Under the pieces are notes generated by a model that saw only the letters and a program-made list of their open reading frames with translations, did no database searches and had not been told where the DNA came from. From positions 1 through 24,425 of IMG/VR virus record IMGVR_UViG_3300021368_001768: 24,425 nucleotides of DNA; one strand, 5' to 3'. This document shows, in pieces, positions 1-23,520 of this stretch. Made by a program: the position numbers and the translations under genes. Every line of letters starts with the position of its first letter. Position 1 is the first letter of the stretch. The stretch comes from a virus.

Positions 1-3000
1 ATACTGGTTCATATTTTTTTTCTATTGTTTCTTCTGACAAGAAGCAAATTAATCTGTATTCATCAAGATCATTTGTAGGTGGTAGCAACTACTTAAAATT
101 TGCTCCACAAGATGATGGGCATAGATTTACATTATATTCTCAGAGATCTAATGAAATTGCTCCACAAAAAATTCTTAAGAAGTTTCCTCTGAATCCAAAT
201 ATTAAAAATGGAAAGGCAGAAGAGACTATTCCTGGAACAACAGGAATGCTTATCAATGGCGTAGAGATATCAAACTATAAATCTGATGATAAAATATACT
301 TTGGTCCCGTAGAGAAGGTAAATCTTCTGAACGGTGGTAGTGGATATGATGTCATTAACTTACCAGTTATCACTGCAACTAATCCAACCAGCACTGGAAC
401 AACTGCTATTATTCAACCAGTAATTAGTGGATCTTTTGAGAAGGTATATATTGATCCTCAAGAGTTTGATATTCAGAACATTGTCTCTATCGGTATCACC
501 GGTGGTAATGGAACTGGTGCAGTATTAGAAGCAAAAACTGCTGATAGATTTAGGAATGTATTCTTCGATGCTAGAAATCAAACAGCTGGTGGCGGTATCA
601 ATACTGTTACAGATCAAATCGTATTTAATACTGACCACAACTTTGTGGGCGGTGAAGAAATCATCTACAACACAGAAGGTAATACCACTGCTGTTGGTTT
701 TGGCACAACTACACTTGTCAACACTGCGTCCTACTTTGCTAAAATTGATAACAATAGGACGATCCAATTATTTGAAACAATAACTGATTACAATGCTGGT
801 ATTAATACAGTAAATCTGACTGATGGTGGTAATGGTATTCAAAAATTCTCTCCATCTAAGTCTAAGAAGACAATTACTAGTGTTGATGTTATTAATGGTG
901 GTAGTGGATATACCAATAGAAATCTTATTGTAAAACCAGTTGGTATTAATACAAGAACAAGTAGTATTGATTTTGCCAATCATGGATTTATTGATGGTGA
1001 TATTATCAATTATGTAAATCACACTGGAGATTCTTGGGAATCACCCGATATTGTTGGATTTGTTTCATCCTTTACTTACAAAGTATTAAAGGTAGATGAT
1101 AATTCTTTCAAATTAGCAAATATTGGTGTTGCCGGAACTGATCTTACCAAATATGATCAGAGAGAACCTGTTAGATTTGAATCGGTAGGTTCTGGATTAC
1201 ATAATTTTAAATTCCCAGACATTTCTGTAAGTGTCCAGTATACGTCTGTTGGATTTGGTACAACAACTCAAACATATCAGACTATTAATGCTGTTCCTGT
1301 TGTTAGAGGATCTATCATTGATGCTTACTTGTCCGAATCTGGAACTGGATATGGATCAACAATTCTAAATCATCATCAAAGACCTCTTATCAGTGTAACG
1401 ACTGGAAAAGATGGACAATTGAATCCATTCATTGTTAATGGTAAAATTGAATCTGTTTCTGTTGATAGTGGTGGTTCAGAGTATACTTCACTTCCTGATG
1501 TTGAAATAAATGATCCAACCGGTTTTGGTATTGGAGCAGATATTAGACCCATCATCAATAATGGAAAATTAACAGACGCTGTTATTGTTAATCCTGGTAT
1601 TGGTTACTCTACCGATACAACAATTAGAGTTAGATCAACAGGAATTAATGCCCTCTTTGATGCTGATATTAGATCATTGAGTGTTATTAACAATGAAAGA
1701 TTTGATGATGAGTTGCTACAAGAAACTGACAATAAACTGCAGTATTCTGTACTGGGATATTTTAGTGCATTAAGAACTGCTTTTGGGGAAGATTCGTCTA
1801 CTGCTTCAGGCATTATTGGATGGGCTTATGATGGAAATCCAATTTATGGACCTTTTGGATATTCTGACCCAGAAGATACTAACTCATCTGCTGCTAGAGT
1901 AAGAAGTGGATATGTTCTCAATGCATCCAATGTTTTTGACAGACCATCCGCTTTTGCTAATGGTTTCTTTGCTGAAGATTATCAGTATACAAATAATGGA
2001 GACCTTGATGAATACAATGGTAGATTTGCTAAGACACTTGAATTCCCAAATGGTGTTTATGCTTACTATGCAACCTTAAACTCTTCAAATAATCCAGAGT
2101 TCCCATATTTTATTGGTAACAAGTATAGATCTAATACTTTACCAGAAAATATTTCTCTAAATCAAGAGTTTGATTTTAATTCATCAAAATTACTTAGAAA
2201 TACTTTCCCATATAAAGTATCAGATGCGAATGCTGATAATGACTTTATTATTGAGACAAGTGAGATTATAAATCAAAAATCAATTGTTGAGGGACAGTCC
2301 AAAGGCACTGTTACTGGATTTGACATTGTTAGCTCTGGAAAAAATTATAAAGTAAATGATATTCTTAATTTTGATGCCACAGATAGTGGTGGTGGTTTAA
2401 TTTCTAAGATATCAAAAATTAAGGGTAAAACTATTACCGATGTAACAACAACGGTTGAAGAATTTTCTGATGCAGTATTTACTCTTGATAGTGATAGAAA
2501 AGTAAAAGTTACTATCAAACCTCAACACACTATTTTAAATGGTGAGAGTATTGTTATTTCTGGATTCTCAACGAGTTTGACAGAACTAAATGATAACTTT
2601 ATTGCTGGAGTAACAACTTATAGATCTGCACTTATTCAGGAAATCCCAAGTGGAACTGCTGGATTAACAACTGAAATTTATGTTGCTAATATTCCCCAAA
2701 ATGTTTCAGTTGGTAGTAGTATTTCTATTGGATCTGAAACCTTTGAAATTTTTGAGGTATTTAAGAATAACAATGCATTAAAAGTTGAGAGAAGTTTAAC
2801 AGGTGTTTCTCACACTACTACTTCTATTGTCAACTTTAATCCAAATTCACTAACCATTGATTCTAACTTAGAATTCTTTGACTCGAAGGTAAATGATAAA
2901 GTATATTTTAACCCACAACAGTCTGTTGGTGTTGGTACAACTGCTGGACTGTCCTCAACGGTCACTTTCTCGTTTGGCAGTGGCACTGTAACAAGAGATA

Positions 3001-6000
3001 TTCCAACTAAGTCAATTATTCTCGAAGATCATCCTTTTGACAACAATCAAAAGGTTCGTTTTGTGACGGGTGGAGCAACAATATCGATTTCTACATCTCC
3101 AACTGGATCACTTGATCCATTACCTTCTACAGTTTATGTTATTAACAAAAATGTAAACACCATTGGTATAAAAACCTCTTTAGATAGTTCAGAGGTTTAT
3201 TTCAGAACCAATGGATCTAACACCAGTCTTTACTATTTTGAATCCACCTTCAATCAAATCTTAGGTAAAGTTCAGAAAGTAAGATCTCAGGTATCTGTAT
3301 CAACTTTCCATGAACTAAAACCAAATGATGTTATTAGTTTGAATGTAAATCCATCACTCTCTGTTGGAATTGGTACTTCTACTGCTGTTGTTGTAAAGAG
3401 AAATGTTTCTAATGGAAATATTCATTTAAATCCATTTGAATTTACATCAGCTGCTATTGATACTACTAGAAACATAATTACAATTAATGATCACGGTCTG
3501 AAGACTGGTGATAAGGTAGATTATGATGCTGATACTGTTGCTAGTGGACTAAGCACCAATACATATTTTGTTTATAGAGTTGATGATGATAGAATTCAAC
3601 TGTCAACGACAAATGTAAACGTATCGGCAAATCCACCAGTAGTTGTTAATATAACTGGTTCTGGTGGAGCTAATCAGACAATATCACCAATTAACCCAAG
3701 AATAGAATCGGTAAAAGATAATCATTTAGTATTTGATTTGTCAGATTCTTCTCTGCAAGATCATCAACTAAAAATTTATTATGATAATGAATATAATAAT
3801 GAAATTGTATCAATATCTACGACTGGATCTTTCACGATTGTTGGATATGGAACTGCTGGTGTAACAGCAGGTGCAGCTCTAACTATTTCTTATAATCAAG
3901 ATTTACCAAGAAGACTTTATTATAACCTGGAAAAGGGTGGATATATCAGCACTGCTGATAAAGAGGTCTCTAATTATTCAGAGATCATGTTCACTGATAG
4001 TGCATATGTTGGTAACTACAAAGTATCTCCTATTGGATTTACAAGCACTAGTTTCAATGTATTCTTAAGTGAAATACCCGAAAATCTATCATATGCATCA
4101 ACTGAATGTAATGTACTTTCGTATGATACAAACTCAGTTAATGCTACTGGTTCTATTTCCAAAATTGATATTATATCTGGTGGAAGTAATTATGAAAGAG
4201 TTCCTGTTTTCTCTGGTGTAACTGGATCAAATGGTACTGATGCTAGTATCGTCCCAACCTCAGATACAATAGGTAATGCAGATAGTGTTAGAGTTATTAA
4301 TGAAGGATTTGAGTATTCTTCTGATAAAACACTGCAACCAACTGCCGATATTGATGATTTCATTACAATAAGAGATTCTAACACTGTTGGAATTGTAAGT
4401 ATTGTTAGTGGAGGTAAAAATTATATTAGTGCTCCTACAGTTTCAATTGTTAATTCAGTAACACGTAAAAAAATTGATAGTGGTTTACTTCTCCCAATTA
4501 TTACATCAAATGCTATTACTGAAGTTATAATTGAAGATGAACCAAAAGGACTTCCAGAAACCACTGTAGATCTTTTCACAGAAAATAACACTAACGGTGT
4601 TAGTGTTCAAAAAGTATTCACAAATGATAATGTTGGTATTGTTACCTGCGAAATTACTACACCAACTATTGGATTTGCAGAAAATCCATTTAAGATTGGT
4701 GATAAAGTCTTCTTGGAAGGTGTTGTAAACTATACAACAACAGGAACTGGATATAACTCTCCAGATATTGGATATAAGTTCTACACTGTTACAAACTATG
4801 ATACAACAAGCAGTGTTCTTGATAGAGTAACTCTTGATGGAACTGATTATATTACTGCTGGTAGTGCAGGTATTGCGAAAACTGAACAGGGTGCTGTCCC
4901 TGTTCTGATTAAAGAGAGTGATTATCCTTCATTGATTGCCATACAGAAGAGATCCGACTTCTTAGTTGGTGAATCTCTAATTGTTGGTGGATTGGAAAGA
5001 GATCTGTTTATCACATCTTATGAAGAGACTACGATTAAGGTTAGTGGATCTTACGAACTGTCATTGAATGATGAAATAACAGGATCTGATTCTGGAAATA
5101 AAGGAACAGTTTCTGATATTGAAGTTGGTGAAGGTATATTTAAAGTTGATTATAAGATTGAGAAAAATATTGGTTGGGAAGATAATGTTGGTATGTTAGA
5201 CCTGGATAATCAGGTTGTATCTGATAATGATTATTATCAAAATCTTTCTTATTCTATCAAGAGTCCACTAACTTACAAAAAAACAACAGAGGTTGTAAAG
5301 GGTATACTGCATACAAGCGGTCTTAAAGATTTTGCTGATACTGGTATTACTTCTGAAGCTCCAGCTGGTGTAGGATCACGAAATAATGGAGATTTAATTG
5401 GAGATGATGGTGTTGATGATCAGACATCTATATTCAAAGATATAATCGATGAAGTAAGAGTAGATACACTTTATAATTTTGATTTGGTAAGAGATATTGA
5501 TGTTGTAGATGATACTTCCAAATTTATTGAATTTAAAAACAAGAGATTAACTGATTTTATTGATTGTAGAACTAATAAAGTTTTGACAATAGATGATATT
5601 AGTTCTCAATTCTCTAATGTTGATGGAGACCCAAGTCAATTTGCTACTTTATTTGATTTTGATAGTGGCAGAACATATTACAATATTTTGGCTAGAGTTA
5701 ATAATACTGATGGAGACGAAGTTCAGTTAAGTGAATTTGCTGTTCTTAGATCAAATAACGATTTCTTCATTCTTGATAAAGGAACGGTAGTTAATAATGG
5801 AGATAATTTACTCCATAATGCTGGTGAAGAATATGGTTCTTTCAGCATTGTTACTGATGCATTTGGATCCAGCAGTTTAAGGTTTACTCCAGAAGAACCA
5901 CTTAATACAGATTACGATCTAAAATTAAGAATAAGTGAGTTTAATTCTTCACTTTCTGGAATAGGTACCAGGGATCTTGGTGTTGTTAAGTTGGTTAGTT

Positions 6001-9000
6001 CGAACGGAATAACAACAGCAACAGGAATTACTACAACATTATACACTGAGGAAGGATCCAAATTTGAAGGATTATTTGCTGAAGTGCAAGTAATTGATAA
6101 AAATAATGATGAAATGAATTATGTAAGTGCTTACATGACTCATGATGGAACTGATACTTTTATTTCTGATTTCTATAGTGATACTAATGAAGACACTAAT
6201 GCACTCACAGTAGATGAAATTGGTGAGTTTGCTGGTGATATTGTAAGTGGAATGGTTTCATTCAATTACACCAGTGATAAAGATAATGATGTAGAAATTA
6301 GATCTAGAATAGTTGGATTTGGAACCACAGGAATGGGTTCTGGAACATATAGATTTAAATCTACTGGTCAGATAGATGGATCAGAAAGATCTGTAATTTA
6401 TCAGTCTGGATTTAACGAAAATGTTTCAGCTGCCGCAACTATTCTATCAATTAGCAATAATTTATTCAATGCTGTCAAATCTTACGTTAAGGTAAGTGTT
6501 GGAAATACTAGTGCTCTTCATCAAGTTATGATGATTAGAGACAATAATCAGGATATTTATTTACAACAATCACCTTTCTTGTCAATTGGTAGTACAAGTG
6601 GATTAGGAACTTTCGGATCTAATATAACTTCTGGAAATCTAGATCTTCATTTCACACCAGATAATTCTCAAACTGTAGAGATATCAACTTTCAGTGAATG
6701 TTTCTATCAAGCACAAGACTCTGTAAATATTCCAAATTCTCTTACATTTAATTCTATAACTGAGAGTATTGATTATGATTTCTATAATGCCATTAACGGT
6801 GATAGGATTAATAAGAGACAATTTAAGGTAACTCACGATGGAGTTCCAATTTTTGCCAAGGTATTCAATCCAGATGATAATACGGAACTTAATCTCTCTA
6901 CTGGCACATTCTCAATTACAGATCACTTCTTCTCAAATGGAGAGCAATTAAATTATACAGCAAACTCCACTTTTGCTGGGATTGGTGCTAGTGTCATGCA
7001 CTATAGAAATGATGTTGGAATCGAAGGCGAATTACCTCCAACAGTATTTGCTGTTGTTGGATCAGATCCAGATAGTTTCCAAATATCAACAACCAAAGCT
7101 GGAACAGCAGTTACATTTACCTCAGTTGGTGAAGGTAATTATCATATGCTTGAGATGTCTGTGAGAAACTCTAAGTCTCTCATAGCTATTGATAATCTCG
7201 CCCAATACCCAGTAACATTCTCTCCAATATCTCACCCATTAGGAGATAATGGTGGATCAATTGGAATTGGAACCACCGTATTCTCCTTAAGTGGTATTTC
7301 TACCATTTTACCCAACGACGTTCTGAGAGTTGATGAAGAATATATGATTGTTCAAAACGTTGGTTTTGGAACAACTAATGTTGGACCCATTACTAATAGT
7401 GGAACGATTGGTCTTGTAACTGTAGAGAGAGGTGCTATTGGAAGTGCTGCTTCTACACACCAGGATTCCACTGGCGTTGCTACAGTCTTTAAGGGTGCTT
7501 ATAACCTTGTTGGTCAGGATATTTTCTTCACTCAACCACCAAGAGGAAATCCTCAAATTCAGACTACTGATTCTAATTTACCATTCCCAACTTCACATTT
7601 CAATGGTAGAGCGTATCTGAGACAGGATTATACTACAAACAGAGTTTATGATGATGTTTCTGCTAAGTTTACCGGAATAGGTCAAACATTTACTTTAAAT
7701 GTCGGTGGTGCTAATACTGCTGGTATTGGTACTACTGGTGGAAACGGTGTTCTGTTTATTAATGGAATTTTCCAAACTCCAACAACTGCTAATAATCCAG
7801 CAAATAACTTCTCTATCATTGAGGATAATTCTGTTGGTGTAAGTAGTGTTCTGTTCAGTGGTATCAGAGATCAGGCTGAAAATATCTTCACAAGTGTTGC
7901 TGACGTGAATATCGGTCAACTGCCTAGAGGCGGTATGATTGTATCACTTGGTTCAAGTGGTGGTCTTGGATATGCACCATTAGATGGCGCAATCGTGGCA
8001 CCTACAATCGGAGCAAATGGTAGTATTGGTAGTGTGGTTGTTGGATTTGGTTCAACATCTGATATTAAGAATGTAACTGACGGTTACATGATCAGCACTG
8101 CAACTTATAATGCTTCTACTGGTGTTCTTGAAGTAACTACGGAAGAACCACATAAGTTTACTCAAAATGTTGAAGAAGTCTTCATGGAAGGTCTTCATTT
8201 TGAATGTGCTGCAGAGCACGCAGGTGTAACCACCACCATCTTCCCAGATGGTAGCAGCCCATTCGGTCAAAGATTCCCTGTACTTGGAATTACATCAGCA
8301 ACAACATTTACCGCAAACGTAGGTATATGCACAATTCCCCATAATTACGTTGGATTTGGTTCAGTTTATAGTTTCCTCAGTGATTTAACTGTTGGTTCTG
8401 GTTATAGAGAGTGGGGTGGCGGAACAGTTTCTGTTGCCGTGACCGACCTTATCTATCCACATAGATTTGTAAGTGCTGGAGTTAATTCAATCACTGATAA
8501 TCTTGGCAATACTTATACAGCAACAAATGCTGAATATGATTCACCAACTGGAATTTTGAAACTCACTATTCCTAGTCATGGATTGACTGATACTAATACA
8601 ATTGGCATAGCAACGGGTAGTTTGGTATTCACTTGCTCAAGAGATAACTATCAAACCAACCATGCATATCCAAGAGCAGTATCTCTCACTAGAAAGAGAA
8701 GAGGTGAATCTGGTGGTGATCCAGCACATAATGTAAATCTGGGAATTACTACATTCACTACTCACACCCTTAGTGTTGGTGTTGGATCTGGCGGTGGCGC
8801 TGGTTCTGGTGCAATAATCAACCACGTAGTTGGTGCTGGCGGAACTTTAGGGTTCTCCGTTGGTGCAGCAGGAACTGAATACGTTAATCCACACATCGAT
8901 GTTTCTGAACCAGTATATGAAAATCTTGAGATTGAGGGTATATCAAGATTGGGTCTTGGACATACAACAGATACTGGAATTGGTTTATTGTTGGATGTAC

Positions 9001-10442
9001 AAGTAGGTGCTAGCTCATCAGCTATTGGTATTGGATCAACTTATCATGAGGTAACTGGATTTAAGATTACAAGACCTGGATATTCATTCAGAAGAGGTGA
9101 TGTATTCAGACCAGTAGGATTAGTTACTGCTTTAGGATTATCTCAACCTGTTAGTGATTATACATTAACTGTTTTGGATATCTTTACTGATAATTTTGCT
9201 TCATGGCAGTTTGGTGAAATTGATTATATCGATTCTATCAAGAATTTCCAAGATGGTTCTAGAAAGAGATTCCCATTATTCTATAATAATGAACTCTTGA
9301 GTTTTGAGGCAGCAGATGATTCTGATGTGGATCTTGCCGCTGCTCTATTAATCATTATTGATGGTGTTATTCAAGAACCAGGATCTGCATATACTTTTGA
9401 GGGTGGAACTTCATTCTCATTTGCTGCTCCTCCATTAGAAGAATCAAAAGTTGATATCTTCTTCTATAGAGGAACAAGAGGAGAGGATACTGTCCTGGTA
9501 ACTGGTGTTAACCAGTTGATTGAAAAGGGTGATCAAGTTCAAATCTTTAAGAATAATGCAATAAGAACTACCAAATCTCAAGGTAAGAGAAGAGTATTTA
9601 ACTTAGATGCTTCTGACAGAATTGAAACTAATAAGTATCTTGATCAAGGAATAAATGATTCCGATTACAAACCACTGAACGTCATCAAGCAAAAGGTTGA
9701 TTTAACGATTAATGGTGAAAAGGTTTATAAGACTAGAGACTCTATCGAAGGTCAAGTATTCCCCGTATCTAAAGTTATTGGTGACTTCTCCGCAAGTGAC
9801 ACTCAAATCTTTGTTGATAATACTGATTTGTTTGATTATGGTTCTCCTGCATCAATTGGATTGATGGTTGTTGCTGGTATTGGAAGTACTGATGCTGTAG
9901 ATAATGTAGAGTTAATTTCTGGAGTAACTAACATTGAAGGTTTCTCTGGTATTGTTACTGGTATTACAACAACTACAGGCACTGGCGGTCACCCACTAGC
10001 ACTTGAGTTCTCTCTTGAGCAAACAACCTTCCCCGGATTGTCTGTTGGATACCCAATTTACATTGATAACACAAATATTGGAACAGGAGCAACTTCAGTA
10101 TTCGATTCTGATGCATCAGTCATTGGAATTGGTCAAACATTCCTGGATAATGTCTACAATATCAGCGCTCTGCATATAGATGGTACTGTTGGAATTATTA
10201 CCTGTAATATTCATTCCGAAAGTCCTGTATCTGGTCTTTCAACATTCGGTGATGAGCATAATCCAGTTGGTAACTTCTCTTGGGGAAGATTATCAGGATT
10301 TAGCAGAGGTGGATCCGCGATATCAATTGGTGTTACAGGATTCACTGTACCAGACGCAACAACGGGTATATCAACATATCCAATCGTCCAAAGAAGAAAT
10401 GTTGGACTTCGCGAAAACGGTTCATTACCAAAACAATTGTAA
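1..10442 (+). CDS. Giant virion structural protein with YHYH-type domain, 5'-truncated (positional equivalent of T4 gp7)
   Basis: This is a giant structural protein, probably part of the baseplate wedge or its periphery. The frame is open from base 3, so the ATG at 246 is internal: the 80 codons before it read as ordinary protein of the same style, and at least 3,479 codons are present. Visible parts are GxGY beta modules (about 320-540, 885-960, 1320-1680, 2315-2420, 4160-4590), a YHYH-type domain at 1818-2130 (GWAYDGNPIYGPFG, then LDEYNGRF and YPYFIG-like blocks), and repeated segments that begin H-x-x-x-x-G-(D/E) and end in VDDDxxQL-like strands. Further on are a YYQNLSYSIKSP block near 5235, two INGVxQxP-type blocks (about 7750 and 9355), and two ATYNxxTGVL-type blocks (8089-8240, 8500-8690). 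The C-terminus (9190-9800) is less repetitive. I see no signal peptide or membrane segment. It lies directly upstream of gp8, where T4 has gp7 (about 1,030 residues), but I see no clear sequence match to gp7. Virion role: sure. Exact position in the particle: inferred. Confidence 0.88.
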   Translation, partial: TGSYFFSIVSSDKKQINLYSSRSFVGGSNYLKFAPQDDGHRFTLYSQRSNEIAPQKILKKFPLNPNIKNGKAEETIPGTTGMLINGVEISNYKSDDKIYFGPVEKVNLLNGGSGYDVINLPVITATNPTSTGTTAIIQPVISGSFEKVYIDPQEFDIQNIVSIGITGGNGTGAVLEAKTADRFRNVFFDARNQTAGGGINTVTDQIVFNTDHNFVGGEEIIYNTEGNTTAVGFGTTTLVNTASYFAKIDNNRTIQLFETITDYNAGINTVNLTDGGNGIQKFSPSKSKKTITSVDVINGGSGYTNRNLIVKPVGINTRTSSIDFANHGFIDGDIINYVNHTGDSWESPDIVGFVSSFTYKVLKVDDNSFKLANIGVAGTDLTKYDQREPVRFESVGSGLHNFKFPDISVSVQYTSVGFGTTTQTYQTINAVPVVRGSIIDAYLSESGTGYGSTILNHHQRPLISVTTGKDGQLNPFIVNGKIESVSVDSGGSEYTSLPDVEINDPTGFGIGADIRPIINNGKLTDAVIVNPGIGYSTDTTIRVRSTGINALFDADIRSLSVINNERFDDELLQETDNKLQYSVLGYFSALRTAFGEDSSTASGIIGWAYDGNPIYGPFGYSDPEDTNSSAARVRSGYVLNASNVFDRPSAFANGFFAEDYQYTNNGDLDEYNGRFAKTLEFPNGVYAYYATLNSSNNPEFPYFIGNKYRSNTLPENISLNQEFDFNSSKLLRNTFPYKVSDANADNDFIIETSEIINQKSIVEGQSKGTVTGFDIVSSGKNYKVNDILNFDATDSGGGLISKISKIKGKTITDVTTTVEEFSDAVFTLDSDRKVKVTIKPQHTILNGESIVISGFSTSLTELNDNFIAGVTTYRSALIQEIPSGTAGLTTEIYVANIPQNVSVGSSISIGSETFEIFEVFKNNNALKVERSLTGVSHTTTSIVNFNPNSLTIDSNLEFFDSKVNDKVYFNPQQSVGVGTTAGLSSTVTFSFGSGTVTRDIPTKSIILEDHPFDNNQKVRFVTGGATISISTSPTGSLDPLPSTVYVINKNVNTIGIKTSLDSSEVYFRTNGSNTSLYYFESTFNQILGKVQKVRSQVSVSTFHELKPNDVISLNVNPSLSVGIGTSTAVVVKRNVSNGNIHLNPFEFTSAAIDTTRNIITINDHGLKTGDKVDYDADTVASGLSTNTYFVYRVDDDRIQLSTTNVNVSANPPVVVNITGSGGANQTISPINPRIESVKDNHLVFDLSDSSLQDHQLKIYYDNEYNNEIVSISTTGSFTIVGYGTAGVTAGAALTISYNQDLPRRLYYNLEKGGYISTADKEVSNYSEIMFTDSAYVGNYKVSPIGFTSTSFNVFLSEIPENLSYASTECNVLSYDTNSVNATGSISKIDIISGGSNYERVPVFSGVTGSNGTDASIVPTSDTIGNADSVRVINEGFEYSSDKTLQPTADIDDFITIRDSNTVGIVSIVSGGKNYISAPTVSIVNSVTRKKIDSGLLLPIITSNAITEVIIEDEPKGLPETTVDLFTENNTNGVSVQKVFTNDNVGIVTCEITTPTIGFAENPFKIGDKVFLEGVVNYTTTGTGYNSPDIGYKFYTVTNYDTTSSVLDRVTLDGTDYITAGSAGIAKTEQGAVPVLIKESDYPSLIAIQKRSDFLVGESLIVGGLERDLFITSYEETTIKVSGSYELSLNDEITGSDSGNKGTVSDIEVGEGIFKVDYKIEKNIGWEDNVGMLDLDNQVVSDNDYYQNLSYSIKSPLTYKKTTEVVKGILHTSGLKDFADTGITSEAPAGVGSRNNGDLIGDDGVDDQTSIFKDIIDEVRVDTLYNFDLVRDIDVVDDTSKFIEFKNKRLTDFIDCRTNKVLTIDDISSQFSNVDGDPSQFATLFDFDSGRTYYNILARVNNTDGDEVQLSEFAVLRSNNDFFILDKGTVVNNGDNLLHNAGEEYGSFSIVTDAFGSSSLRFTPEEPLNTDYDLKLRISEFNSSLSGIGTRDLGVVKLVSSNGITTATGITTTLYTEEGSKFEGLFAEVQVIDKNNDEMNYVSAYMTHDGTDTFISDFYSDTNEDTNALTVDEIGEFAGDIVSGMVSFNYTSDKDNDVEIRSRIVGFGTTGMGSGTYRFKSTGQIDGSERSVIYQSGFNENVSAAATILSISNNLFNAVKSYVKVSVGNTSALHQVMMIRDNNQDIYLQQSPFLSIGSTSGLGTFGSNITSGNLDLHFTPDNSQTVEISTFSECFYQAQDSVNIPNSLTFNSITESIDYDFYNAINGDRINKRQFKVTHDGVPIFAKVFNPDDNTELNLSTGTFSITDHFFSNGEQLNYTANSTFAGIGASVMHYRNDVGIEGELPPTVFAVVGSDPDSFQISTTKAGTAVTFTSVGEGNYHMLEMSVRNSKSLIAIDNLAQYPVTFSPISHPLGDNGGSIGIGTTVFSLSGISTILPNDVLRVDEEYMIVQNVGFGTTNVGPITNSGTIGLVTVERGAIGSAASTHQDSTGVATVFKGAYNLVGQDIFFTQPPRGNPQIQTTDSNLPFPTSHFNGRAYLRQDYTTNRVYDDVSAKFTGIGQTFTLNVGGANTAGIGTTGGNGVLFINGIFQTPTTANNPANNFSIIEDNSVGVSSVLFSGIRDQAENIFTSVADVNIGQLPRGGMIVSLGSSGGLGYAPLDGAIVAPTIGANGSIGSVVVGFGSTSDIKNVTDGYMISTATYNASTGVLEVTTEEPHKFTQNVEEVFMEGLHFECAAEHAGVTTTIFPDGSSPFGQRFPVLGITSATTFTANVGICTIPHNYVGFGSVYSFLSDLTVGSGYREWGGGTVSVAVTDLIYPHRFVSAGVNSITDNLGNTYTATNAEYDSPTGILKLTIPSHGLTDTNTIGIATGSLVFTCSRDNYQTNHAYPRAVSLTRKRRGESGGDPAHNVNLGITTFTTHTLSVGVGSGGGAGSGAIINHVVGAGGTLGFSVGAAGTEYVNPHIDVSEPVYENLEIEGISRLGLGHTTDTGIGLLLDVQVGASSSAIGIGSTYHEVTGFKITRPGYSFRRGDVFRPVGLVTALGLSQPVSDYTLTVLDIFTDNFASWQFGEIDYIDSIKNFQDGSRKRFPLFYNNELLSFEAADDSDVDLAAALLIIIDGVIQEPGSAYTFEGGTSFSFAAPPLEESKVDIFFYRGTRGEDTVLVTGVNQLIEKGDQVQIFKNNAIRTTKSQGKRRVFNLDASDRIETNKYLDQGINDSDYKPLNVIKQKVDLTINGEKVYKTRDSIEGQVFPVSKVIGDFSASDTQIFVDNTDLFDYGSPASIGLMVVAGIGSTDAVDNVELISGVTNIEGFSGIVTGITTTTGTGGHPLALEFSLEQTTFPGLSVGYPIYIDNTNIGTGATSVFDSDASVIGIGQTFLDNVYNISALHIDGTVGIITCNIHSESPVSGLSTFGDEHNPVGNFSWGRLSGFSRGGSAISIGVTGFTVPDATTGISTYPIVQRRNVGLRENGSLPKQL
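1818..2130 (+). other. YHYH-type domain inside the giant structural protein
   Basis: The block GWAYDGNPIYGPFG (1818-1859), followed by LDEYNGRF (about 2004-2027), FPNGVYAYYAT (about 2043-2075) and FPYFIGNKY (2100-2126), follows the conserved order of the YHYH domain found in secreted bacterial proteins and in large marine phage structural proteins. The signature that names the family reads Y-A-Y-Y here (2058-2069), so both histidines are absent. This suggests the fold is kept as a structural or binding module without a histidine-dependent function; that last step is inference. Confidence 0.8.
8089..8690 (+). repeat. Tandem divergent protein module (two copies) in the giant structural protein
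   Basis: Two copies of a module start with ATYNASTGVLEV (from about 8101) and ATNAEYDSPTGILKL (from about 8521). Each continues into a histidine-containing turn (EEPHKF, PSHGL) and a strand ending in FEC or FTC. The second copy then has a DNYxxxHAYPRA block (about 8641-8676). The same block type is common in large virion proteins of marine T4-like phages. The repeat is visible in protein only; the DNA of the two copies has diverged. Confidence 0.65.
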
Positions 10443-10451
10443 TAATCTTTG

Positions 10452-10459
10452 TATAAATA
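10452..10459 (+). promoter_or_regulatory. T4-type late promoter box upstream of gp8
   Basis: A perfect TATAAATA lies in the 34-base gap between the giant gene's stop (10440-10442) and the gp8 start (10477). This is the consensus -10 box recognised by the T4 gp55-type late sigma factor, and related boxes are used by marine T4-like phages. With the usual spacing, transcription would start about 10 bases before the gp8 ATG, giving a very short leader. The longest intergenic gap in the window coincides with this box. Confidence 0.8.
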
Positions 10460-10476
10460 TCTAAAAACGCAATGAT

Positions 10477-12021: not shown

Positions 12022-12027
12022 AAAAAG

Positions 12028-15000
12028 ATGGCACAAAAAACCGATTTAAACGTCAATCCATATTACGACGATTTTGACGCTGCGGATAATTTTTACAAGG
12101 TTTTATTTAAGCCTGGATATCCTGTTCAGGCAAGAGAATTAACTACTCTCCAATCAATCCTCCAAAACCAGATTGAAGACTTTGGTAGTCATATATTTAA
12201 AGAAGGCTCAATTGTTATACCTGGTAATATAGCATATGATGGTCAATTTTATGCGGTAAAGTTAAACCCAACTAATCTGGGTGTTGATGTTTCGGTTTAC
12301 ATCAATAATTTTATTGGTAAAAAAATCACAGGACAAAATTCTGGTACAACTGCCACTATCCAATATGTTGCTATGCCTGATGGCAACAACATTGAGGATT
12401 TGACAATTTATGTAAAATATTTGGACTCTGATAATAATTATGAGTTCAATCAATTTCCAGACAATGAATCTTTCTTTGCAAGTGAGAGTATTGTATATGG
12501 TAATACAACAATTGCTGCAGGAACGGTATTTGCTTCTTCATTAGCTTCAAATTCTACTGCAATTGGATCTGCTGCTTTTATTGGAGATGGTGTATTCTTC
12601 ATCCGTGGTTACTTTGTAAATGTAACTAAGCAAACTCTTCTTCTTGATGAGTATTCAAATACTCCATCATATAGAGTAGGTCTTAAGATAACTGAATCTC
12701 TTATTAATGCAAAAGATGATTCTTCGTTGTATGATAATGCAAAAGGTTTCACTAACTATGCTGCACCTGGTGCTGATAGGTTAAAGATTGGACTTACCTT
12801 GTCCAAAAAACTCATTAGTGATACTAATGATACTGATTTTGTTGAATTACTGAGAGTAGATGATGGAAAGATTAAAATACTTGAAACTAAAACTGAATAT
12901 AATAAACTTCGTGATTATTTGGCAGAAAGAACATATGATGAATCAGGCGACTATTCAATCACACCATTCCAACCATCAATCCACAACTCATTAAATGATA
13001 GACTAGGAAATGATGGTCTATTTTTTAGTGATGAATTGACTGATGAAGGTAATACTCCTTCAGATGATTTGATGTGTGTCAAATTGTCTCCTGGTAAGGC
13101 ATATGTAAGAGGATATGATGTAGAAACTATATCTGCTAAAATTTTAGACGTTGAAAAACCAAGAGATACTAAGAAAGTAACTTCAACAAGTATTCCCTTT
13201 GAGATGGGTAACCTTCTCAGAGTTTTTGATGTATCTGGTATTCCACATTACAGAGAAGCAGTTGACCTTCACGATCAAGTAGATGGTGGTGGTACTGTAA
13301 TCGGTTCTGCTAGAGTTTACTCTTTTGGTGCTACAGATGCCACTTATGCTGGCGATGCAACTCAGTTTGATTTATATCTATATGATATTCAAACATATAC
13401 TGAACTGACAATAAATCAACAACTGTCTTCAATGCAGGCACCTGTTGGATCTTACATTAAAGGTAAGAGTAGTGGTGCTACTGGTTTCCTTGTAACCAAC
13501 GTTGGTGGTGGTGCAACTACAATTAGAATTAGACAAACATCAGGTTCTTTTGCACCTGGTGAGCAAATTCAGGTCAATGGTGTTGATGATGTTCCTGTTG
13601 TAAACTTCCAGGCTGGTCATAGAACAATTACTGAAATTAGAGTATTTGATTCTAAAGATATTAAGTCTGCTGTTCAAGCCAGTGGTGGCGGATTCCCTGG
13701 TTTTACCGCAACCGCAGTTCTTTCCTACACTGACATCCCTGGCGGTACAATCAGTGGTAGTAATACATTTACACCTGATGGGGGTGCATACACTGAATTG
13801 CAAGTTGGTGATATTATTTCATATTATGCTAGTGGTGGCGGTGACAGAAGATGGAATAGAGTTACTGCTGTAATAAGTGGTGGAACTTCATTTACAATTG
13901 CTGCTCTGAGTAGTGCTGTTGCTGGAGTTTTTGATGTCTCTGTTGAAAATGGTACATACACTTCAATTAAAAAAGCAGTATCCGAAATCAGAAATGAAGA
14001 TAAAGGATTTTTATATGCTGAATTACCTGATGCAAATGTAGCATCTGTAAGTCTCAGTGGATCAGAACTGCATGTTACAGAACAGGTTACTGGTAAAACT
14101 ATTGCAAGTAGTCAAGTTACAGTATCAACTTCAGACTTCCCAGACATTACAAATTCATTCTTAACTCCTTTTGATGCTGAAAGATATTTGGTATCTAGTA
14201 GTGGAGGTGGTATTGGCACTGTAACGTCAGATAGTTTCGCATTGAATGCGAATAGTACAACTGCAACTCTGTCTGGACTAACTGATGGAAGTAATGTTGT
14301 AATTAATGCAACTTTAGTTAAGCAAAATATTCAAAGTAAAGTAAAAGAATTTAGTAGATCTAAAGTTCTTAATATTGATTTATCCAAATATACTAAGTCT
14401 GGAACAGGTATTAACACCTCAGTTGGTGATGGACTTACTCATAATATGTTCTATGGACTTAGAGTTCAGGATGAGGAAATTTCTTTAAATGTTCCAGATG
14501 TAACTAATGTAGTTGCTGTTTATGAAAGTCTTGACGCATCAGCACCAACCTTAGATGTATTTGAGTTTACCTCTACTGCTGATGTTACTAACAATGCAGT
14601 AATTGGCGAAAACTTCACAGGTACTGATTCTAAGGCAATTGCTAGAGTTGTTACCAAACCATCCGCTAACCGTTTAGGTATTGTTTATCTTTCTCCTCAA
14701 AAGTTCAATGCTGGTGAGGAAGTAACATTTGATGAATCTAACATTGTTACCAATATTCAAACTATTGTTACTGGTAACTTTAAAGATGTTACAAATTCCT
14801 TTGGTTTAGATAAAGGACAGAAAGATCAATATTATGATTATTCAAGATTGGTTAGAACGAAAGATTCTAATATTCCTTCTAGAAGACTGTTAGTTGTCTA
14901 TGACCACTATATAATTCCTACAGACGATGATGGCGATGTATTCACCGTTCTGAGCTATGATAGTGATAGATTTACAAATGATATTCCACTCATTGGTAAG

Positions 15001-18000
15001 AACCAAGTAAGGGCAACTGATACCCTGGACTTCAGACCAAGAGTTGCTGAGTTCACCTCAACCACATCCTCACCATTTGACTTCCCCGCAAGATCTTTCA
15101 CAGCGGTTCCTAAATTAATTCTTGCTCCAAACGAGTCTTCTCGTTTAGGTTATGATTATTATCTTGGAAGAATTGATAAGATTTACATTGATAAGTTTGG
15201 TACATTCATTGTACAAAAAGGTGTATCTGGTATTGATCCTAAAGCACCAACAAAGATTGACACAGTAATGGAGATTGGTACAGTTACCCTTCCTCCATAT
15301 CTCTACAATCCAAGTGATGCACAACTGGATCTTGTAGATAACAGAAGATATACCATGAGAGACATTGGGTATATCGAAGATAGAGTTGAGAATTTAGAGA
15401 GAGTTACTTCACTTTCACTTCTTGAGTTAAACACATCCACATTACAAATTCAAGATGTAGATGGAAATAACAGATTTAAGAGTGGATTCTTTGTTGATGA
15501 TTTTAGAAACAACGAGTTTATTGATCCTGTATTATCTCAGGCTCAGGTTGAACCAGCATCTCAAGAATTATCTCCAGTTGTTAGTAGAAATACTTTAAAG
15601 AGTCAGTTAGCACCAGCTGAAGAACTGATCGATACTGTCTTAGATCTTTCCACTAATTTCAATCTTCTTGATTCAAATGTTAAGAAGACTGGTAAAGCAG
15701 TAACTCTTGATTATACAGAAAATGGTTGGATTGAGCAACCTCTTGCTACCAGAGTAGAGAATGTAAACCCATTCCACGTAGTCCTTTATACAGGAAGTGT
15801 GGAGTTGAACCCTGCTCAGGATAGTTGGGTCAGAACCATCAGGATACCCCCCAGAAACGTCTTTGGTGGTGCCTCTAACATCTCTTTGGGTGGTGGATGG
15901 CGTGTCTTTGCTGGAACGGTAACACAGGTCAGCACACAGGATGTTGTGGTCTCCTCTGGTAATGATGCATTCATGAGATCAAGGAATACTGAGTTCGATA
16001 TCTCAAACATCAAACCACTTACCAAGTTCTATCAATTCTTTGATGGAAATGGATCTGTTGATTTTGTACCCAAACTTCTTGAAATCGCTAGTGATAGTGC
16101 TCTTGAGAACTATGGTGCATCTGGTGAGTTCACAGTTGGTGAAACTGTTCATGGCACCGATTCTGAAGGCAACATCTTAATCAGATTTAGAGTTGCTCAA
16201 TCAAACCATAAGAAAGGACCATTCAATGCTCCTACTTTAACATATAATATTAACCCATATGTAAAGAGTGAAAATCTTCAAACCTCTTACAGTGCTTCAT
16301 CAAAAGTTCTGAACGTTGATACATTTGCACTTTCTGAAGAAGCACAGGGTAGATACTTTGGTTATGTAACCAGAGGTATGAAGTTGGTTGGTCAAGAAAG
16401 TGGAACAACTGCTTATCTGAAAGATCTCAGACTGATTTCTGACAACTATGGTGATCTGCAAGGTACATTCTTCCTGAAGGATCCATATGCTAACCCAGCA
16501 CCTTCTGTAAGAATTGAGACTGGTACTAAGTCATTCAGAGTTACAAATAGCCCAACTAATGCTGAACCACTGCCTGGCAGCAACTTGATTTCAAGTGCTG
16601 AGACAGAATACAAGGCAGAAGGTATCTTCCAGGTCAGACAACTTGTTCAGACCAGAAGAACTATCAACCGTTTCGTCGATCCACTTGCTCAGTCATTCAC
16701 AGTTGGTGGTAACATCGATACAACTTCTGATCCTACAGGAGCAAATGATGATACCAACGGAGCATATCTGACTGCTGTTGATCTGTTCTTTGCTAATAAG
16801 GACAGCAACAACAACCCAGTAAGAGTTGAGATTAGAACTGTTGAACTGGGAACTCCAACAAGAGATGTTATCGGAGATCCTGTTACACTGAGACCTGATG
16901 ATATCACTATCTCCAGAACTGGAGAAATTGCTACTAAGGTTTCCTTCCCATACCCTATCTTCCTTGAGCCATCAAAAGAATATGCGATTGTTATCGTATC
17001 TGAGGCAAGTGATGAGTATGAACTGTGGTGCGCTCGCATGGGTGAGGTCACTGTAAATACTCAGTCACTGCCTGACGCTGAAGCAGTTAGATATACCAAG
17101 CAATTTGCTCTGGGTAGCTTGTTCAAGTCACAGAACGGAACAATCTGGACTGCTGACCAGTATCAAGATCTTAAGTTCAAACTGTATAAGGCGAACTTCA
17201 CTTCCACCTCAGGTACTGCCTACTTCTATAATCCAACTCTGGATGAGAGCAATGGTTATGTTCAGGTTCTTGGTAACAATGCAGTTACCACTCTGCCTAA
17301 GACTCGAACACTGGGTATCACTACTGCGTATGATGTAGTAACTCAAAATACTCTGGTTACTGGTAGAAAGGTTGTTGGTTCTGAAGATTTTGTAAGTGCG
17401 ACTATTGTTGGGACGGGTAGTTCCGTTGCCAATATTAGTGTCAATTCTGGCGGAACAGGTTATGTATCCGATACAATGGTTGATACTTATAATATTGTTG
17501 GTGAAGGAACTGGTCTAAAACTCAATATTACTGCTGATGCGGATGGTGTTATTACTGGAGTATCTAGAGCTGTTGATGGTTCTGATATTCAACACGGAAA
17601 TGGATATCAACAAGGTGATATAGTTGGTATTGTAACATCCACTGTTTCTTCTGCTACTGGTTCTGGTGCAAGAATAAACATTACATCTAAAATTGGTGTA
17701 GATACTCTCTACTTGAGTGATATTAAAGGTGATACCTTTACAACTGGTATTGGAGTAAGTTTCAGAGATGATGTTGGAACTTTAGTTTCACTTGCCAATA
17801 CTACCATTCTTTCTTACACCGAAACCGGTGGTGTTAATTCTGGTGAATATCTGAAAGTCAATCATTTTGATCATGGTATGTACTCAGATACTAATGATGT
17901 GATCATTAGTGACGTACAAACTAATATTGCACCAACAACACTTTCTTCCGACTTAACATCTCAAGAAGTTGATATTATCAATGTAACAGATTCTTCCAAT

Positions 18001-19188: not shown

Positions 19189-19388
19189 TAAGAGTTGAAG
19201 GGCACCAGCATCTTTACAGAGATGAAAAAACTGGTGCCATAGTCAATTGTGATAATGTGGCATACAATCAATATGTCTCTTCTCTCAAAAGAAGATCCTC
19301 TCAAAAAAGAGAACTATCTGAAATGAGAAAAGAGATTGATGAACTAAAGTCATTAGTAAAGGAGATTTTAAATGGAAATGAATCCTGA
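19185..19388 (+). CDS. Small protein with C-terminal coiled coil
   Basis: A 67-residue protein of unknown function. The N-terminus (MIRVEGHQHLYRDEKTGAIV) looks like a small beta unit. Residues about 32-64 form a charged amphipathic helix with heptad-like spacing (KRELSEMRKEIDELKSLVKEIL), probably a coiled coil. Its ATG overlaps the previous stop (ATGA, 19185-19188), so translation is probably coupled to the DUF4815 gene. Its 3' end overlaps the next gene by 17 bases. From memory, short proteins starting this way occur beside structural and packaging genes of marine T4-like phages. An assembly or scaffolding role is only a guess. Confidence 0.75.
   Translation: MIRVEGHQHLYRDEKTGAIVNCDNVAYNQYVSSLKRRSSQKRELSEMRKEIDELKSLVKEILNGNES
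19361..19364 (+). promoter_or_regulatory. Shine-Dalgarno site that decides the 19372 start
   Basis: GGAG lies seven bases before the ATG at 19372, inside the end of the preceding gene. It is one of the few clear ribosome binding sites in the window; most other starts rely on stop/start overlap. Confidence 0.6.
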
Positions 19389-19557
19389 TGATATTTCATT
19401 AGAAACAATGAATAAGTCTTTTGCCTATGAAAAACTGGCGAGAGACGTAGATGATATCGATGATCCTAGGGTTTTAAGAGAACTTGCGAAGTGTTATATC
19501 AAATTATATTTTAAACAACAAGAAGTTGTAGGTAGGATGGGAGCACCGACGATATAA
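19372..19557 (+). CDS. Small hypothetical late protein
   Basis: A 61-residue, mostly helical acidic protein with no recognised function. Key stretches are SFAYEKLARDVDDIDDPRVL (residues about 11-30) and ELAKCYIKLYFKQQEVVGRM. GGAG at 19361-19364 sits 7 bases before the ATG at 19372, which favours this start over the ATG at 19378. The gene overlaps the end of the upstream coiled-coil gene, and its stop codon lies within a late promoter box. Similar short proteins are, as far as I recall, conserved in cyanophages at this place. Confidence 0.75.
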   Translation: MEMNPDDISLETMNKSFAYEKLARDVDDIDDPRVLRELAKCYIKLYFKQQEVVGRMGAPTI

Positions 19558-19560
19558 ATA
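19553..19560 (+). promoter_or_regulatory. T4-type late promoter box upstream of the fibre-like genes
   Basis: A second perfect TATAAATA. It overlaps the TAA stop (19555-19557) of the 61-residue gene and ends 26 bases before the ATG at 19587, in the short gap 19558-19586. It probably starts a late transcript covering the fibre-like, neck and tail-completion genes, since no comparable box is seen between here and the right edge. Confidence 0.78.
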
Positions 19561-19586
19561 TATACTAGGTTCCCTATATTCAGTTC

Positions 19587-19814
19587 ATGGCTGATATTAA
19601 AGTTAGAGTAGGTCAATCACCAGCAGTTAAAGTTACTTCCTCCTTGGGCGGCGCTCAGGGAGGTTCTTTAGCAGAATTGAGTGATGTCACGATTAGTAAT
19701 CCAGTAGATGGAACAGTTTTGGTTTACAACAACACTTCTAAGAAGTTTGAAGGAACTAATACTTTAACTACTGGAAACGATCAAACCTTAACTATTAATG
19801 GTGGTGTCTTCTAA
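19587..19814 (+). CDS. Short fibre-like structural protein
   Basis: A 75-residue protein starting MADIKVRVGQ. Its middle (LSDVTISNPVDGTVLVYNN, residues about 31-49) matches a segment that recurs in tail-fibre and appendage proteins of marine phages. It is the first gene after the late promoter at 19553-19560. Its stop overlaps the next start (TAATG at 19812-19816), so it is probably translated together with the following fibre-like protein and may be its partner or base. No strong Shine-Dalgarno is seen. The assignment rests on motif and position only. Confidence 0.7.
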   Translation: MADIKVRVGQSPAVKVTSSLGGAQGGSLAELSDVTISNPVDGTVLVYNNTSKKFEGTNTLTTGNDQTLTINGGVF

Positions 19815-21085: not shown

Positions 21086-21240
21086 TGAATGATGAAGTTG
21101 ACGTGAATGCATTGATTACTCTATATAATCAAAAAGTATCGCAATTATCAAATCAAGTTATATTATTAGAAGCAAAGTTACAAACTTTGACGCAAGATTA
21201 TCAAGAACTGAAAGAGAAGCACCAATCTACGTATGAATAG
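21085..21240 (+). CDS. Small coiled-coil protein between the fibre and neck genes
   Basis: A 51-residue frame, easily missed because of its size. It begins MNDEVDVNALITLYNQKVSQ and continues as one long helix with regularly spaced Leu/Ile/Val (LSNQVILLEAKLQTLTQDYQ), a good candidate for a coiled coil. A GGAGG at 21071-21075 and a TGATG overlap with the fibre-like gene's stop (21083-21087) support expression. It fills exactly the space before gp13, whose ATG is 7 bases after its stop. Function unknown; I recall short proteins of this type before gp13 in cyanophages. It might help trimerise or attach the fibre, but that is a guess. Confidence 0.78.
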   Translation: MNDEVDVNALITLYNQKVSQLSNQVILLEAKLQTLTQDYQELKEKHQSTYE

Positions 21241-21247
21241 ATAAAAA

Positions 21248-22111
21248 ATGGCAAAACCAACGACAAGACAAGAATTAATTGATTACTGCCTAAGAAGATT
21301 GGGTGCTCCTGTATTGGAGATTAACGTAGATGATGATCAGATTGATGATCTTGTAGATGATACGATTCAATTCTTCAACGAACGCCACTTTGATGGTGTT
21401 GAAAGAATGTATCTCAAGCACAAGATTACTGCAACAGATATTGAGAGAGGGCGTGGATTAACATCTGGAACAACATCAGTAAACAGTGAAACAGGTGTTG
21501 GAATTGTAACTACAACAGGCACTTCTACAAATAGTTCTGGTAACTTTACCTCAACTTTTTACGAAAACTCAAATTATATTCAAGTTCCCGATCCTGTAAT
21601 CGGCATTGAAAAGGTATTCAAATTTAATACAAGTGAGATATCTGGCAGCATGTTCAGTGTCAAATATCAATTGTTTTTGAATGATATGTATAATTTCAAT
21701 TCAATTGATCTTCTACAGTATTCAATGGTAAAGACATATCTTTCTGATATTGATTATCTTCTCACTACTGATAAGCAAATCAGATTTACCAAAAATCAAA
21801 ACAGATTGTATTTGGACGTTGATTTTGCCGAGTTCACTGCTGGAGACTTCATAATCATTGATTGCTTTAGAGCACTTGACCCTGCTAACTTTGCAAAGAT
21901 CTATAACGATTCTTTTGTAAAGAGATATCTTACTGCACTCATTAAGAGACAGTGGGGACAGAACCTCATCAAATTCAGAGGTGTCAAACTGCCAGGTGGT
22001 ATTGAACTGAATGGTAGGGAGATTTATGAAGACGCAGAAAAAGAATTGGATGAAATAAAATCCAAGATGAGCATGGATTATGAATTACCACCTCTCGACT
22101 TTATTGGATAA
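21248..22111 (+). CDS. 13: Neck protein gp13
   Basis: This is neck protein gp13, which in T4 assembles with gp14 beneath the portal to complete the head and receive the tail. The N-terminal 60 residues match the family: RQELIDYCLRRLGAPVLEIN, then DDDQIDDLVDDTIQFF and FDGVERMYLKH. The C-terminal part contains KRYLTALIKRQWGQNL (about 220-235) and KLPGGIELNGREIYEDAEKE, also typical. Its 287 residues are close to T4's 309. Residues about 70-105 are a Thr/Ser/Gly-rich linker. The stop overlaps the gp14 start (TAATG, 22109-22113), which suits a pair that works together. Confidence 0.95.
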   Translation: MAKPTTRQELIDYCLRRLGAPVLEINVDDDQIDDLVDDTIQFFNERHFDGVERMYLKHKITATDIERGRGLTSGTTSVNSETGVGIVTTTGTSTNSSGNFTSTFYENSNYIQVPDPVIGIEKVFKFNTSEISGSMFSVKYQLFLNDMYNFNSIDLLQYSMVKTYLSDIDYLLTTDKQIRFTKNQNRLYLDVDFAEFTAGDFIIIDCFRALDPANFAKIYNDSFVKRYLTALIKRQWGQNLIKFRGVKLPGGIELNGREIYEDAEKELDEIKSKMSMDYELPPLDFIG

Positions 22112-23520
22112 TGGCACTAAATCCCTTCTTCCTCCAAGGAGCACAATCAGAACAAAGACTGATTCAGGATCTCATCAATGAGCAACTGCAAATTTATGGT
22201 GTTGAGATTACTTACATACCAAGAAAGTTTGTAAGAAAGCAAACTATTATCAAAGAAGTTCAGTCTTCTAAATTTGATGATAATTTTGCACTAGAAGCAT
22301 ACGTCAACACTTATGAAGGATATTCTGGTGCTGGTGATGTTCTTACAAAGTTTGGTGTCAGTCTGAGAGACGAAGTAACTTTAACAATATCAAAAGAGAG
22401 ATTTGAAGACTTTATTAGTCCATTCCTTGATGCGGCAGACGATGCTGAAGTAGAACTTGCATCAAGACCAAGAGAAGGAGACTTAGTATATTTCCCACTA
22501 GGACAAAGACTTTTTGAAATTAAGTTCGTAGAACATGAGAAACCCTTCTATCAGTTGGGTAAAACTTATGTTTATGAAATACAGTGCGAACTCTTCGAAT
22601 ATGAAGATGAAGTTATCAACACTGGTATTGAAGAGATTGACGAGACGGTACAGGATGAAGGATATATTACTACACTTCAACTGGTTGGTTCTGGTGTAAC
22701 CGCAACGGCAACTCCTTCAGTTAATACTGGATATGTTAGAAACATATTCTTGAATGATGATGGTTCTGGATACACATCAACTCCAACTGTCGCAATTGGA
22801 ACAGCACCATCTGGCGGTGGAAACGTAAATGCAACTGCTGTTGCGATTACTACTGAAAGAGCTGGAGTATTCTCTGTTGAGAGTATAAGAATCACCAATG
22901 CTGGTCAAGGTTATACACAAGCACCCACTATTACAATTAGTGGTGGAGGAGGAAGTGGTGCTGCCGCTACATGTAGCGTAGAAACGACACTCCGTGGTGT
23001 TACTGCAATAAGTATAGCGGAAGAGGGAAGAGGATACACTGTTGCACCTTCTATATCCTTTATAACCACTGGTGTAGGCGTTTCTGTTCCAACTGCCGTT
23101 CCTATAATGAAGAACGCACTGGTTGGTCTTTCTGTCGATACGATTCAAATTACAGATCCTGGTTCTGGAATGGTTGGTGTTGTTACCGTCAGTATCACAC
23201 CTCCACCTTTCATCAGCACCACTGGTAACTACAACTTCAACGAACTGGTCAATGGTTCTATCAGCGGAACGCAGGGTAGAGTCAAAGAGTGGGATCTCGA
23301 TACTAAGATACTCAAGGTATCAAACGTTGGTATCGGAACAACTGCAAAGGGATTTATTCCTGGAGAACTCGTTACTGGAGTTGGTTCATCTACTGTCTAC
23401 GCAGTTGGTTCATATAATAAAGATGATATATATGATGAATATGCTTCTAATGAAGAAATAGAAGCAGAAGCAGATTTAATCCTTGACTTCTCACAATCTA
23501 ATCCATTCGGTTCATACTAA
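22111..23520 (+). CDS. 14: Neck protein gp14 with large Gly-rich insertion
   Basis: This is neck protein gp14, the partner of gp13 at the head-tail connection. Residues 1 to about 180 follow the T4 family: NPFFLQGAQSEQRLIQDLIN, IYGVEITYIPRKF, SKFDDNFALEAYV, LTKFGVSLRDEVTL. The end (residues 459-469, DFSQSNPFGSY) resembles the T4-type C-terminus. At 469 residues it is nearly twice T4 gp14 (256). The difference is a Gly-rich segment of four GxGY-type beta modules (residues about 209-363) followed by a GSISGTQGRV module (about 382-430). These resemble modules in the giant baseplate proteins of this window and would probably project from the neck. The start overlaps gp13's stop. Confidence 0.93.
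   Translation: MALNPFFLQGAQSEQRLIQDLINEQLQIYGVEITYIPRKFVRKQTIIKEVQSSKFDDNFALEAYVNTYEGYSGAGDVLTKFGVSLRDEVTLTISKERFEDFISPFLDAADDAEVELASRPREGDLVYFPLGQRLFEIKFVEHEKPFYQLGKTYVYEIQCELFEYEDEVINTGIEEIDETVQDEGYITTLQLVGSGVTATATPSVNTGYVRNIFLNDDGSGYTSTPTVAIGTAPSGGGNVNATAVAITTERAGVFSVESIRITNAGQGYTQAPTITISGGGGSGAAATCSVETTLRGVTAISIAEEGRGYTVAPSISFITTGVGVSVPTAVPIMKNALVGLSVDTIQITDPGSGMVGVVTVSITPPPFISTTGNYNFNELVNGSISGTQGRVKEWDLDTKILKVSNVGIGTTAKGFIPGELVTGVGSSTVYAVGSYNKDDIYDEYASNEEIEAEADLILDFSQSNPFGSY
22735..23205 (+). repeat. Four GxGY beta modules inside gp14
   Basis: Consecutive divergent protein repeats read IFLNDDGSGYTSTPTVAIG, IRITNAGQGYTQAPTITIS, ISIAEEGRGYTVAPSISF and IQITDPGSGMVGVVTVSI. Each is a strand, a Gly-x-Gly-Tyr turn, a Pro, then a second strand, with spacers of about 25-35 residues. 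The fourth copy has lost the Tyr. The repeat is evident in protein; the DNA copies have diverged. Confidence 0.8.

Follow-up and report, generated by a model that had tools for sequence, protein, structure and literature searches.

A GxGY repeat of T4-like phage neck and baseplate proteins: paired copies in gp14 and a probable Ig-like fold

The locus and its repeat copies

The window analysed here is a stretch of 24,425 nucleotides (IMG/VR record IMGVR_UViG_3300021368_001768), and the source phage of this 24.4 kb fragment is marine and T4-like, of the Kyanoviridae type. Its gene order matches that of P-SSM2, with gp7, gp8, a DUF4815/VrlC-like protein, a 423-aa protein, gp13, gp14 and gp15. The interval at 19189-19813, flanked by the genes of the DUF4815 and 423-aa proteins, contains no ORF of at least 80 aa; P-SSM2 has several small genes there. 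The original prediction placed one GxGY beta module in a giant upstream protein, gp8, the DUF4815 protein and gp14. The giant protein is the gp7 ortholog, the baseplate wedge initiator, and carries most of the copies in the window. The features are the following, in window coordinates.

3-10442, + strand: giant gp7-like protein of the baseplate wedge, 3479 aa, truncated at the 5' end (phrog_2885; orthologous to P-SSM2 gp7; placed between gp6 and gp8)
300-542, + strand: gp7 module pair a, a clear copy at 306-455 and a degenerate partner at 435-533, FEKVYIDPQEFD...GGNGTGA (HMMs; partner by eye)
870-968, + strand: isolated gp7 copy, VINGGSGYTNRNL (23.6 bits when in the training set, 7.6 with the iterated HMM)
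1173-1685, + strand: gp7 array, a degenerate copy at about 1173-1310 (by eye) followed by 1311-1457, 1443-1589 and 1566-1685 (HMMs, AlphaFold model)
2307-2453, + strand: isolated weak gp7 copy, GD variant, SGKNYKVNDILNF (HMMs)
4152-4637, + strand: gp7 array, 4152-4289, 4278-4388 and 4383-4535 plus a degenerate fourth copy by eye (HMMs)
11134-11376, + strand: gp8 module pair, 11143-11238 and 11257-11304+ (HMMs, PHROG)
17416-17697, + strand: module pair of the DUF4815/VrlC-like protein (HMMs)
22111-22644, + strand: gp14 N-terminal neck domain, T4 gp14 family PF11649 (Pfam and PDB matches)
22669-22725, + strand: first part of the gp14 C-terminal beta-barrel, with strands at 187-192 and 199-205 (model, structure alignment)
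22732-23247, + strand: gp14 array of four modules, 22732-22896, 22873-23025, 22996-23154 and 23131-23247 (HMMs, model)
23224-23421, + strand: gp14 C-terminal beta-barrel, second part, NYNFNELVNG...VKEWD...VYAV (model, structure alignment)

The predicted copy coordinates were correct to within tens of bases. Of the three near-tandem copies expected at 1320-1680, all three were found as clear copies (1311-1685), preceded by the degenerate fourth, and the expected period of roughly 45 residues was corrected to 41-47 aa. The gp7 units at 870-968 and 2307-2453 were present as well, isolated and weaker than the others. A YHYH domain (PF14240, E 5.6e-25) lies in gp7 at 1770-2084, directly after the 1173-1685 array. 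The gp8 pair falls in the region that makes this protein about 195 aa longer than T4 gp8. In the DUF4815 protein the second copy has a divergent GNGYQxGD form; the proteins at the same position in S-RSM4 and Sf-FS3 carry two copies each according to the broader HMM.

Recovery of the repeat across proteins

With an HMM built from the nine gp7 copies alone, three gp14 copies were recovered (20.0, 11.5 and 7.4 bits). No score above 10.0 occurred in 100 block-shuffled windows, so that the two best gp14 copies stood above every one of them, and the recurring unit is real. A gp14-only HMM was too narrow a profile and did not recover the other window proteins above decoys. After iterative training across 81 related loci, at 0.02 decoy hits per shuffled window, the gp14 copies scored 43.8, 39.2, 24.1 and 19.9 bits, gp8 19.8 bits, the gp7 copies 16.3, 14.7 and 12.4 bits, and the DUF4815 protein a weak 6.6 bits. 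A broader HMM, with window copies partly in its training set, scored the DUF4815 protein at 11 bits, the top decoy reaching 8.7. Recovery across proteins, as anticipated by the original prediction, held from gp7 to gp14 and, with related contigs in training, for gp8; it failed from the gp14-only profile and was weaker for DUF4815.

Independently built profiles pointed the same way. Residues 190-336 of gp14 were matched by phrog_708, 701, 5342, 19630, 4406, 2885, 1922 and 438, eight baseplate, tail-fibre and structural families, and residues 204-275 of gp8 matched phrog_460, the gp14 family. In seven cyanophage regions the broader HMM found copies in gp7 and gp14, usually in gp8 and often in the protein at the DUF4815 position; a tail-fibre-like protein of S-RSM4 also carries copies.

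We considered whether a Gly-rich turn motif could have arisen convergently, without common descent. GGSGY-like turns are low in complexity, and the scores of the DUF4815 copies are weak when the window is taken by itself. However, block-shuffled sequences of equal local composition fell below the gp7, gp8 and gp14 scores, the match common to the copies extends across the strand pattern, P-x-V-x-I and G-x-GA, and the predicted strand order agrees, so that convergence is very improbable. The profile matches and a strand order common to the gp7 and gp14 models bear out the notion of one homologous beta module in otherwise different baseplate and neck proteins.

The repeat is covered by no Pfam or NCBIfam family, and gp7, gp8 and gp14 gave no match to Pfam Ig-type models (Ig/FN3/Big) at E up to 1. 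An artificial repeat consensus had no match in plasmids, a search in which low complexity may have been filtered out. An earlier description of the repeat in cyanophage gp14 was not found in the open literature. Large unannotated stretches of structural proteins of abundant marine phages are filled by these repeats.

Arrays and copy number in gp14

The N-terminal domain of gp14 was identified by PF11649 (E 1.2e-32) and by T4 gp14 in the PDB (E 1.7e-26), with 31-34% identity to the T4 gp14 structures. VIA-align matches of the gp14 model spanned residues 183 to 442 with just 55-75 residues aligned; combined with the predicted strands, this shows that residues 183-206 and 379-442 form one barrel around the array. 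Matches of the same search to eIF2-gamma domain 3 and the F1 barrel (Z about 5-6) appear to belong to this host barrel rather than to the repeats and were set aside. In our proposal the four modules of the array amount to two Ig-like domains, both placed within the barrel's beta1-beta2 loop.

In gp14 of S-RIM44 and S-CAM1 the barrel is uninterrupted and free of copies. The gp14s of P-SSM2, S-SM2, S-CAM9 and the window have the array ahead of NYNFNE, and those of S-RSM4 and S-RIM8 have two copies after GEEVVG, in the next barrel loop. Mapping the site of insertion onto a tree of the gp14 N-terminal domain takes three changes; the same kind of domain thus occupies two different loops of one barrel. 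gp14 barrels with and without arrays agree with the view that module arrays are inserted into loops and vary in number.

Further inserts were seen at the same barrel. In four gp14s (L031, L044, L059 and L299) an insert without GxGY lies in the last barrel loop, about 80 aa before the C-terminal NPFG, as a third insertion site. In gp14 of Sf-FS3 (L089:42043-44334) residues 322-448 form a Laminin_G_3 (lectin-like) domain within the GxGY array (E 2.9e-7), and the gp14s of L310, L333 and L336 (about 1020 aa) have a LamG-like stretch without a Pfam call. When the gp14 barrel was sought in other window proteins, GxxVxGxxSGT and FxxGExI fragments in the DUF4815 protein and gp7 scored below the best shuffled decoy; the barrel-like fragments below decoy level lie at 16102-16173, 14614-14766, 5064-5141 and 12310-12366. 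S-CAM9, with an eight-copy gp14, has a protein of 373 aa at the gp13 position (L087:36337-37455; 287 aa in the window) and a gp15 of 359 aa (L087:39448-40524; 267 aa in the window).

Copies were counted in 100 non-redundant gp14 proteins, 94 of which had them. The machine count was even in 88 of these 94, with totals of 2, 4, 6, 8 and 10, and on inspection the six odd counts look like a weak hit missed or a spurious one. In the longer gp14s of L310 and L333, 11 copies score above zero bits and a twelfth is uncertain; these copies surround the extra LamG-like stretch. The parity reflects a few independent events and not 94, because relatives share ancestry, mostly a single four-copy ancestor; the eight architecture states of gp14 need at least 12 changes on the N-terminal-domain tree. 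Between the close neighbours L288 and L332 the difference is one in-frame pair (about 85 aa), and between L286 and its neighbour L300 it is a pair plus another stretch. The pair specific to L288 had no match among phages by tblastn at E 1e-5.

The window has two copies in gp8, two in the DUF4815 protein and four in gp14, and the gp7 arrays comprise two, four and four copies when the degenerate ones counted by eye are included; the two isolated gp7 copies do not fit the pairing. The evidence for parity comes mostly from gp14, and these isolated copies and L310/L333 leave pairing short of proven everywhere. Even counts and two-repeat gains nevertheless make the pair, rather than the single repeat first proposed, the unit.

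Mean copy identity across proteins was 0.296 within the same genome and 0.294 between different genomes, which led us to reject homogenisation of copies within genomes. Between gp14s of different genomes it was 0.343. Among four-copy gp14s, scores were 67-119 when copies at the same position in different phages were compared and 35-55 when the positions differed, and at E 1e-5 the gp14 array of the window matched only gp14s or unannotated records. By these sequence comparisons the gp14 copies are orthologous by position. A spreading of the module as present-day exchange between these proteins, as first suggested, is not upheld, within-genome identity being no higher and the gp14 copies orthologous. 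Dispersal among proteins is old, and the ongoing change is the gain of pairs within gp14.

Fold of the repeat pair, possible role and known systems

A pair profile, A4, built from eleven copy pairs, was compared with 177,635 PDB sequences. Its sole convincing match was Dpo31/Dpo36, residues 450-514 (E 4.2e-6; next match 0.85). Dpo31 is the EPS depolymerase tailspike of the Cobetia marina podophage Carin-1 (PDB 28lx, 28mg; tail-fibre entry 8ck1). The gp14-only HMM scored it at 11.2 bits, whereas none of 500 shuffles exceeded 6.9; the gp7-only HMM did not reach it. Residues 434-536 of Dpo31 are described as the Ig-like domain D3*, which is set into the trimeric beta-helix and stands out from it; alone it is soluble and monomeric, and it has distant DALI similarity to sugar-binding domains (PMC13317679, 2026). 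Its sequence shows two GxGY repeats.

The gp14 array was modelled by AlphaFold with a pLDDT of about 75-91; in the gp7 array at 1173-1685, clear copies two and three reached 90-96. The strand order S3-S1-S2, with a period of 41-44, was the same in both models, in line with the common fold expected. Among viral models, the gp7 model aligned with the two-copy gp14 of S-RIM32 (82 columns at 2.5 A) and with YHYH proteins (74-78 columns at 1.1-1.4 A); its two-module stretch 75-160 resembled Ig C1/filamin sandwiches weakly (Z up to 4.9). Foldseek gave no confident relative of the array in the PDB, and a PDB search with the single sequence of a two-copy gp14 insert gave no match. Each repeat pair probably folds into one Ig-like domain as in D3*.

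The repeats might instead chain into one continuous beta-solenoid or rod per protein, without a closed two-repeat domain. The regular 41-47 aa spacing and the continuous S3-S1 hairpins in the gp7 and gp14 models would suit such an arrangement, but the counts are mostly even, gains are of two repeats and Dpo31 D3* was solved as a two-repeat Ig-like domain, and we regard a solenoid as improbable.

On balance we favour, with moderate confidence, a reading in which two repeats make one loop-inserted Ig-like domain with an exposed adhesive or decorative role. The unit S1-GGSGY-S2-GxGA-S3, present twice over about 85 aa, would form one small Ig-like beta-sandwich. Such domains, single or arrayed, would be plugged into loops at the surface of gp7, gp8, the DUF4815 protein, gp14 and tail-fibre-like proteins, leaving the host fold undisturbed and changing in number by whole domains. 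In T4, gp14 is a hexamer of the neck, and a four-repeat gp14 would place about 12 Ig-like domains around it. The C-terminal barrel from which the arrays would project belongs to the arm whose T4 equivalent docks to the tail terminator gp15, and we infer a position of the cyanophage array outside the gp15 ring. As weak adhesive or decoration domains they could hold the particle at the host surface polysaccharide. Surface adhesion or decoration appears the likeliest role, and the original suggestion of surface decoration or carbohydrate binding is plausible in view of Dpo31 D3* and of LamG in a gp14 array.

The same domains could alternatively be spacers or contact surfaces inside the particle, meeting neck fibres or gp15 in the case of gp14 and serving wedge packing in gp7 and gp8, and not host-facing adhesins. 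Once neck and tail have joined in T4, residues 178-256 of gp14 contact gp15 extensively (PMC12270204); gp7 and gp8, as components of the wedge, pack against their neighbours, and the copy positions in gp14 are conserved as orthologs. Yet copy number ranges from 0 to 10+ among relatives whose gp14 is otherwise conserved, as befits a free surface; the array can accommodate a LamG domain, and D3* stands out from its spike. We hold this contact role to be the less likely, though a serious rival, and exposed adhesion or decoration remains our preferred reading. As a tentative extension of it, the uncurated two-repeat Ig-like family may be a general plug-in of marine phage particles that comes and goes by whole pairs at hot spots in loops, and through gp14 the neck of T4-like cyanophages may be a second host-adhesion belt tuned by copy number. 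If two repeats are one crystal-anchored Ig-like domain, many of the unannotated stretches would become annotatable, and the gain of pairs at two sites in gp14 brings neck decoration within reach of testing.

Several known systems bear comparison with the window. Mosaic protein fragments in phages are likewise common to functionally different virion proteins, neck proteins being among the recent mosaics; the survey describing them does not contain the word cyanophage, and no account of the window module was found in it (PMC10684548). T4 gp14 shares the N-terminal PF11649 domain with the window gp14; the T4-type gp14 of KIT03 (256 aa) lacks both the C-terminal barrel sequence and the copies. Ig-like domains (I-set, Big_2, FN3) are known as exposed elements on capsid, tail and baseplate proteins of tailed phages, where they are often thought to bind surface sugars weakly. 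Those are accessory beta-sandwiches spread over many structural proteins, as proposed here for the repeat pairs; the type in the window differs in being built from two internal repeats and in bearing a GxGY signature, and no Pfam Ig family matches it. Dpo31 D3*, the only solved relative found, similarly combines two GxGY repeats per about 100 aa with insertion into a loop of an unrelated structural fold, but it is single and sits in the beta-helix of a podophage tailspike, whereas here the repeats form arrays in myophage neck and baseplate proteins.
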